Below are positions 47,760 through 51,006 of a stretch of DNA of 64,000 bases, piece by piece. The first letter of the stretch is position 1. Each line of letters begins with the position of its first letter. The notes below the pieces were generated by a model, which saw only the letters and a list, made by a program, of their open reading frames with translations, was not told the DNA's origin and did not search any database. The translations under genes were made by a program, and so were the position numbers. The stretch is from Thermoanaerobacteraceae bacterium (lineage in GTDB: Bacteria; Bacillota; JADQBR01). Location: positions 228,121 to 292,120 of the forward strand of contig JACDOG010000002.1 of assembly GCA_017656305.1 (NCBI GenBank), read 5' to 3'.

Positions 47760-47788
47760 TTGACAGCGAAAAAGATAGGTAGTATCCT
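47760..47788 (+). promoter_or_regulatory. Promoter of the selenoprotein gene
   Basis: -35 TTGACA, 17-bp spacer, -10 TATCCT. With the terminator at 48175 it makes the selenoprotein gene a one-gene transcript. Confidence 0.6.
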
Positions 47789-47819
47789 AGAATATAGTAA
47801 ATTGGAGGAGGCACCAATC

Positions 47820-48140
47820 ATGGAACAAAAAATACACATTCAAGTTTTCGGTTCCCGAGCATACGATGCTTGCAATACCGGCGGCTGAGGCCCCAGGCAG
47901 ACCCAGGAGGAGCTCACCGGTTTGGTGAGAAAAATGATTATCGACAAGTATGACAACGTGGAAATCACCTACATTGATATATCCGACCCTGAAGTAAAGG
48001 ATTATCCCAAGGTGCAGCCGCACATCAAGCATCCGGGTACACCGCTGCCCATTGTGGCTTTCAATGGTGAACCCAAATGGGCCGGCTCCATTTCCTTTCA
48101 CCACATCATTCAAGAACTCCAACGGCTGGGAGTAGTTTAA
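47820..48140 (+). CDS. Thioredoxin-fold-like selenoprotein with in-frame UGA (Sec23)
   Basis: ATG 47820 follows a strong GGAGGAGG site. The frame runs 22 codons to TGA (47886-47888) and stays open in the same frame for 83 more codons to TAA, giving 106 aa with selenocysteine at 23. The start is HIQVFGSRAYDACNTGGU, with Cys18 and Sec23 in one loop. The rest reads ITYIDISDPEV and GTPLPIVAFNGEPKWAGSIS (beta strands and a cis-Pro-like TPLP). This follows the pattern of the YuzD/DUF1462 thioredoxin-like family, where a CxxC sits in the same place. A redox role is inferred. A SECIS-like hairpin lies 24 bases after the UGA. Confidence 0.8.
47886..47929 (+). promoter_or_regulatory. Sec UGA codon and bacterial SECIS-like hairpin
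   Basis: UGA at 47886-47888. A perfect 6-bp stem CTCACC/GGTGAG (47913-47929) carries the loop GGTTT. The loop begins 30 bases after the UGA, inside the window I recall for bacterial SECIS elements, and has G in its first two positions, as SelB recognition needs. The hairpin is also coding sequence. Confidence 0.7.
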
Positions 48141-48174: not shown

Positions 48175-48209
48175 GGGACCGTCAAACATGGACGGTCCCT
48201 TTAATTTTT
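48175..48209 (+). terminator. Terminator after the selenoprotein gene
   Basis: Perfect 9-bp stem GGGACCGTC / GACGGTCCC with a 7-base loop, followed by TTTAATTTTT. Confidence 0.92.
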
Positions 48210-49818: not shown

Positions 49819-49893
49819 GCTGATGTGGCTCAGTGGTAGAGCAGCGCACTCGTAATGCGCAGGTCGCCGGTTCGAATCCGGCCATCAGCTCCA
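49819..49893 (+). tRNA. tRNA-Thr (CGT), CCA encoded
   Basis: 75 bases. The acceptor arms GCTGATG / CATCAGC pair fully. D-arm GCTC..GAGC, anticodon stem GCGCA/TGCGC around loop CTCGTAA, T-arm GCCGG-TTCGAAT-CCGGC, discriminator T, then CCA. A tyrosine integrase remnant lies directly beyond its 3' end, so this gene is the probable attachment site of the island. Confidence 0.95.
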
Positions 49894-49901
49894 GTAATAT
49901 C

Positions 49902-49935
49902 AAGGGTTTCAGCGATTGGCTGAAACCCTTATTCT
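49902..49935 (+). terminator. Terminator of tRNA-Thr
   Basis: Perfect 12-bp stem AAGGGTTTCAGC / GCTGAAACCCTT with a GATTG loop, followed by ATTCTT. Confidence 0.8.
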
Positions 49936-49940
49936 TCGAA

Positions 49941-49962
49941 AGTAATGCAACGGTAATGCAAC
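49941..49962. repeat. Tandem 11-bp repeat beside the integrase gene
   Basis: Two back-to-back copies of (A/G)GTAATGCAAC lie between the tRNA terminator and the integrase stop. A partial inverted copy (GGGTTGC) follows. Short direct repeats here are typical of integrase arm-binding sites. Confidence 0.5.
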
Positions 49963-49978
49963 CGGGTTGCAAAAAAAT

Positions 49979-51006
49979 TTAAGACATCTTTTTCCCTAAA
50001 ATGCTGTCCATTCGGTGGGCAGCTTTTTTCTTCTTTTTCGCTGTTACATGAGAATAAATGTTTGCGGTAGTTCTTATGTCAGAGTGGCGAAGTAATTCTT
50101 GAATGGTTCTCAGGTCTTCTCCGTCTTCCAGGAGCCTGGTTGCAAAAGTATGCCGAAGACCATGCAAGTTCACACTCTCATCCACTCCGGCCTTCTTACG
50201 CAATGAATAATATTTTCTTTCGAAGTTTCTGGGATAAATATAGGTTCCTACATCTGTAGCAAATACTATATTTTTATTCTTATATTTCGGGCCCTGGAGC
50301 ATGATAATTTCTAATTGGCTTTTTCGATGCTGCCTAATAGCCTGTGAAACTATTTCTGGCATAGGCACAACACTTTTGGATTTTTCCGTTTTAGGTTCCT
50401 CAGTAATAAGTCCTTTTGCCTTTGCTTTAGATAAAGTTCTACGAACATGTATTAAGTCATTTTCAAAGTCTATATCATCCCACTCAAGGGCCAGGAGCTC
50501 CCCAATCCTTAAGCCGGTCCCGAGTAGAGTTAAAAAAGCAGCCCTCCACTTGTCGCTCTCTTTATTGATCACCTTTAGGAACTTGTCCATATCTTCCTCA
50601 CTAAGTACTTTAGCTTCCTTTGGTTTTAGGGAAGGCCTTTCGGTAGCTTTGCTGGGGTTCCAGGCAATTAACCTTTTTTCAACGGCCTTTTCAAGACATG
50701 AGTGAATAATGCAGTGAATTTTATGAATGGTAGCAGGTGCCTTCCCGTCATCTTTAAGCTTATTGTAAAGTGTCTGAATATGATCACTATTCAACTCACT
50801 GAGAAGGATATCCCCTAAAGCAGGGTAAATGTGATGTCGTGAATACATATAATAATTTTCAAGTGTTGATAACCGTAACTTTTGGGCTTCCCTGTTTCCG
50901 GGTCTTTTCCAATAGTTATTTGCCCAACCCATTTACCCTTGTGTTTTCCGCTTTTGACCTGATAGATAGTACCTTCACCATTAGCGTTTTTCCGCTTTTT
51001 TGGCAT
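49979..51006 (-). pseudogene. int: Tyrosine integrase with internal deletion and frameshift
   Basis: The N-terminus from ATG 51006 (AAAGGGGGAG site) is a normal AP2-like arm-binding domain (NGEGTIYQVKSGKHKGKWVG..GKDPETGKPK). The catalytic part lies in another frame (49979-50932), beginning with a core-binding domain (STLENYYMYSRHHIYPALGD). It retains R (GTGLRIGELLAL), HxxR (HGLRHTFATRL), H and Y (LRHSDIRTTANIYSHV). Intact relatives have some 50 residues between these parts; here they are missing and the frames do not match. The integrase is therefore probably dead unless the catalytic part is made alone. Confidence 0.75.

Follow-up and report, generated by a model that had tools for sequence, protein, structure and literature searches.

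The closest described counterparts of the protein analysed here are small proteins with a thioredoxin-like fold. The nearest solved structure is that of YuzD from Staphylococcus aureus (1xg8, SA0798; Pfam DUF1462, PF07315), which possesses a C-x2-C motif and no selenocysteine (Sec, U). The metallochaperone ArsD (NF033727/PF06953) shows a similar fold, and several members of the family described below have weak profile similarity to it. Sec-containing thioredoxins, glutaredoxins and the HUIPC thioredoxin-like selenoproteins are likewise small and thioredoxin-like with a presumed thiol/selenol redox site. SELENOW-like selenoproteins and those with the CC/Se motif (NF041239) are small and of the CxxU type.

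The window, i.e., the whole stretch of 64,000 nucleotides that was analysed, encodes a protein with the motif C-x4-U, in which Sec comes second, in contrast to the UxxC used by the catalogued Sec thioredoxin, glutaredoxin and HUIPC proteins. None of 29 members of its family matched NF041239 or the SELENOW domain PF10262. The fold of the window protein is predicted to be thioredoxin-like: an AlphaFold2 model built with 29 sequences reached a pLDDT of 88.9, the active-site loop being its least confident part (pLDDT about 73), and the best Foldseek matches in the PDB were 1xg8, thioredoxin and ArsD. Beside the fold, the protein shares with YuzD a similar length and a conserved YID...P...G pattern; 1xg8 was matched with a Foldseek probability of 1.00 (TM about 0.6) and in a profile comparison with E 1.9e-7, with Sec23 placed over the second Cys of the CxxC. 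Against DUF1462 the protein scored 16.6 bits at a gathering cut-off of 25, and ten other members scanned singly also stayed below 25 bits, so that by the Pfam test it falls outside DUF1462 and is related to YuzD only distantly. The YuzD-like thioredoxin fold claimed in a preliminary description of this DNA is thus borne out by the 1xg8 profile and by Foldseek, with the relation being a distant one.

The gene and its reading frame

The frame begins with ATG at 47820, ends with TAA at 48138-48140 and encodes 106 residues with a single in-frame TGA. Translation confirmed that it continues in phase through the UGA at codon 23, as had been proposed, and the good ribosome site, the promoter-like site and the terminator-like hairpin that had been described around it were all located. 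Under translation table 11 without recoding, a 72-codon tail started by TTG is the sole open reading frame of this stretch and frame. The features are as follows.

47760..47788, + strand: promoter-like TTGACA-17-TATCCT (consensus scan, 10/12; such a match is not proof of function)
47804..47811, + strand: ribosome-binding site GGAGGAGG (read from the sequence)
47820..48140, + strand: selenoprotein gene of 106 codons including the TGA, closed by TAA (translation and TGA-containing homologues)
47871..47873, + strand: codon of Cys18, the presumed partner of Sec23 (C-x4-U); Cys in 13/13 true matches of a DNA pattern
47886..47888, + strand: TGA codon 23, almost certainly read as Sec; motif CNTGGU-GP, Sec(TGA)/Cys column in 29/29 homologues
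48175..48199, + strand: intrinsic-terminator-like hairpin, 9 bp with a T tail (consensus scan)

Upstream in the window lie gmk, coaBC, metK and a D-2-hydroxyacid dehydrogenase gene, as they do in the nearest relative (G002), a genome of the same family as the source. On the other side, a tRNA-Thr(CGT) gene at 49819-49893 precedes a minus-strand gene that resembles an integrase (together 49819-51006 of the window); this pair probably marks the border of an integrated element, which would start 1.7 kb from the selenoprotein gene.

Conservation of the TGA codon in relatives

Among a sample of 398 Bacillota genomes, 64 contain a homologue; phyla beyond Bacillota were covered solely by a DNA pattern scan of named genomes. 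The protein of G002 is 72% identical and has its TGA in the identical codon. Including the window gene, 21 distinct genes carry a TGA at the site of codon 23. They come from bins labelled Thermincola ferriacetica and Carboxydocella thermautotrophica and from unclassified Bacillota/Eubacteriales MAGs. Similarity extends to both sides of the TGA. Every aligned homologue that has no TGA in the column of codon 23 has Cys there, so that each of the 29 alignment rows shows either Sec or Cys at this position, and the Gly that follows is invariant. Members with Cys, e.g., L020 and L024, are uninterrupted open reading frames.

The DNA pattern demanded the TGA and left codon 18 unconstrained. It returned 15 loci, of which 13 were true relatives by their translations, and each of these 13 has a Cys five codons 5' of the TGA. 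The remaining matches, in Herbidospora (L057) and in an Anaerolineae genome (L065), were judged from their translations to be due to chance. A scan of viral contigs for relatives gave no match, and an exact 8-residue peptide search with the single protein, in which U was back-translated as Cys and which was probably too strict, retrieved no relatives. Two checks named in the preliminary description are answered by these comparisons: aligned relatives have Cys or Sec at codon 23 and never another residue, and independent genomes carry the same TGA, which speaks against a sequencing error.

SECIS hairpins

The bSECIS model describes a loop of 3-9 nt with a G in the first two loop positions at a distance of 16-37 nt from the UGA (PMC13188914). 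Two sites downstream of codon 23 are of relevance.

47898..47916, + strand: where other family members form the proximal hairpin; the window has a degenerate version, and base pairs are disrupted both here and in G002
47913..47929, + strand: candidate bSECIS hairpin CTCACC-GGTTT-GGTGAG, 6 bp, loop 30 nt after the UGA

The hairpin of the window agrees with the model (6 bp, loop GGUUU, spacing 30), and G002 possesses the same hairpin with the loop GGTCT at identical spacing. A hairpin with a GGTTT loop at SECIS distance had been described before; its existence and spacing stand, but by itself it would be weak evidence. It is unexceptional compared to shuffles (z = -0.77), 2.3% of all TGA triplets of the window precede a hairpin about as good, and its position is common to one relative only, namely G002. 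Synonymous codons are identical between the window and G002 at 5/6 sites in the hairpin vs. 35/66 elsewhere, a difference that, with two sequences, is not significant.

Most relatives have their hairpin closer to the UGA, by 13-14 nt. This proximal hairpin was found in 19 relatives as TCTC-(5 nt)-GAGA, starting ~10 nt and spaced 16-17 nt after the UGA, a position that fits the bSECIS model too; several of these hairpins alone are weaker than the -7.5 kcal/mol of the model (PMC13188914). The core TCTC...GAG(A/G) is invariant in the 19 relatives, and the outer pairs covary: pair 15-29 is GC in 10, AU in 7 and GU in 2 of them, and pair 14-30 occurs as AU, GC, GU or UA. Changes on both sides of a pair were counted in 13 cells, where shuffles gave 5.2 +/- 2.1, and far lower scores resulted when the pairing was slid. 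The Ser encoded within the hairpin is written TCT in 19/19 relatives out of six possible codons, as is expected under a base-pairing constraint.

Selenocysteine machinery and genetic code of the source genome

The source genome (G000; 2.7 Mb, 99.95% complete) encodes selA, selB, selC and selD, the absence of which had been named as a refutation. The selC gene lies at C5:133349 (75.9 bits; anticodon TCA, UCA in RNA) and is adjoined by selA (632.8 bits) and selB (398.4 bits). The selD gene (382.6 bits) is itself interrupted by a TGA at the classic GU active-site motif (CASAAGU) and itself needs UGA to be read as Sec. As TGA still terminates 10 of the 46 long open reading frames of the window, a reassignment of this codon was rejected; UGA continues to end ordinary genes, which argues for Sec insertion and not for a change of the code. 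That TGA ends other genes of the window is also what can be said for codon 23 being a real stop, be it through a pseudogene, a sequencing error or two separate open reading frames. This explanation is extremely improbable, given that 20 other distinct genes, from many genera, share the TGA, that the hairpin covaries and that the Sec system is complete. The recurrence of the TGA and the full machinery of the genome are also what lifts the window hairpin above chance. Judged by comparison of the sequences, it is nearly certain that UGA codon 23 is decoded as Sec.

A sister clade with Sec at a second position

In the tree, the Sec genes of the type found in the window, with Sec in a GGUGP motif, are split by one branch (support 92/79) from genes with an upstream Sec. 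Seven of these sister genes (L026, L030, L031, L034, L038, L087, L088) have the TGA upstream and Cys in the column of the GGUGP Sec. Separately, a divergent member (L081, G170:C83) was observed with C-x2-U and not C-x4-U; its genome also has paralogs without a TGA.

Gene neighbourhoods and proposed function

In our assessment, with a probability of roughly 0.6, the gene encodes a small thioredoxin-like selenoprotein with a Sec-decoded UGA that works as a selenol-dependent oxidoreductase with a Cys-x4-Sec site. Comparison supports well that the in-frame UGA would be decoded as Sec by SelB and tRNA-Sec, aided by the hairpin just downstream. According to the alignment, Sec23 and Cys18 would form the active site, with C-x4-U where YuzD has C-x2-C. 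From fold, motif and gene neighbours it may be proposed that the selenol attacks a disulfide or another oxidised substrate, that a Sec-Cys selenenylsulfide then forms, and that thioredoxin reductase and thioredoxin would return this to the reduced state.

The trxB gene adjoins the family gene in Thermincola and in the genomes G210, G059 and G019 (both trxB neighbours that were tested exceed 400 bits against TIGR01292), and trxA adjoins it at two loci (L055, L067). The trxB-linked loci often add a 4Fe-4S ferredoxin, a PAHS[VL]xP protein, an FmdB zinc ribbon and a response regulator/kinase pair. Against this reading, the selenoprotein gene is not adjacent to trxB in its own genome, C-x4-U is wider than the typical CxxU/UxxC redox motif, and the neighbourhoods vary (trxB, queDC, yedE-tusA). 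In G000, genes for FmdB, PAHS, rhodanese and kinase form a cluster that lies ~58 kb ahead of the start of the window and does not include the selenoprotein gene described here.

A different explanation is that the selenoprotein is a metal(loid)- or selenium/sulfur-binding carrier, such as an ArsD-like chaperone or a persulfide/selenide carrier, with Cys18 and Sec23 holding the cargo. The top fold matches include ArsD structures, and 10 of the 29 members have a weak Pfam match to ArsD (e.g., L013, E 1.8e-5). The genes of the upstream-Sec sister proteins L087-L089 lie directly after arsR-arsD-arsA-arsA, and other sister genes were read from translations to stand beside an ACR3-like transporter (L030) and selD (L038). 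Furthermore, YedE/TusA-like genes are located 3' of the Carboxydocella copy. However, the window protein scores below the curated cut-off for ArsD (13.8 vs. 90 bits), the ars linkage is found in the sister clade and not in the GGUGP clade, and it is the latter next to which trxB and trxA recur. We regard a carrier role as rather unlikely.

A role in tRNA modification or sulfur transfer, e.g., as reductase for queuosine or thiolation enzymes, appears less likely still. A subclade in Thermincola and relatives (L060, L061, L066, L069, L072, L083) is held in a queD-queC operon, miaB-like genes lie 3' of three sister-clade members (L026, L028, L031), and in the window itself a MiaB/MtaB-like gene is located 3' of the selenoprotein gene. 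Against this, the downstream MtaB-like gene is not kept in G002, and most GGUGP members are found in other contexts. Taken over all gene contexts, the comparison favours a redox role linked to the thioredoxin system over metalloid or sulfur carriers, and the neighbour genes suggest that the substrate belongs to the redox chemistry of thiols, sulfur, selenium or metalloids.

Two of the neighbouring families were looked at in their own right. FmdB zinc-ribbon genes that end in FG-TGA-G(x)-stop, or in a variant of it, were observed at eight loci (L058, L062, L063, L071, L079, L118, L119, L120). The copy of the source genome (L118 4151-4351, i.e., G000:C2:168650-168850, outside the window) ends in FG-TGA-A-stop and that of G002 in FT-TGA-G-stop. 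About 17-21 nt separate the TGA from a hairpin (loop GGU, GUU, GGA or AGGAG) that in most cases lies past the next stop codon. FmdB is thereby a candidate second selenoprotein, whose Sec would sit in a C-terminal tail and whose SECIS would lie in the 3' UTR. The PAHS[VL]xP family comprises small coiled-coil proteins with an invariant PAHS motif and occurs in 49 of the 398 genomes (alignment A4), with no Pfam match above its cut-off. Its gene is repeatedly found beside the selenoprotein gene; one copy (L064) is fused to DUF302, and in the source genome it lies at about 6000-6200 of L118.

In a broader reading, these genes would belong to an uncatalogued and widespread superfamily of Bacillota with Sec at two active-site positions in sister clades, often within a redox module of thioredoxin reductase, ferredoxin, PAHSVKP protein and FmdB with a C-terminal FG-Sec-G tail, the last being a second selenoprotein with its SECIS after the stop codon. 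The odds for this reading seem to us evenly balanced.

Novelty and implications

That no described selenoprotein family has this motif, as had been surmised, agrees with the resources compared. No selenoprotein model of NCBIfam 20.0 matches the window protein, and the sole such match among the 29 members is NF047660, which is weak and found in 4 of them (best E 0.0013). The table of 119 prokaryotic selenoprotein families of May 2026 has no DUF1462 or C-x4-U entry (PMC13188914). No described DUF1462/YuzD or Thermincola selenoprotein matching the family was found in the literature, as far as this was covered, with Haft and Tolstoy (2025) judged through the 2026 catalogue. In the scope of NCBIfam 20.0 and the 119-family table, the selenoprotein family thus appears to have been missed by catalogues and annotation models.

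With this finding, the catalogue of about 119 families gains one whose Cys-x4-Sec site is uncommon, and the GGUGP-type family is not contained in the curated annotation models tested. As the position of the SECIS differs by 13-14 nt among relatives of one gene, the tolerance of SelB for the position of the hairpin becomes testable. The uncharacterised fold of YuzD/DUF1462 also gains a hypothesis of redox function that can be tested.
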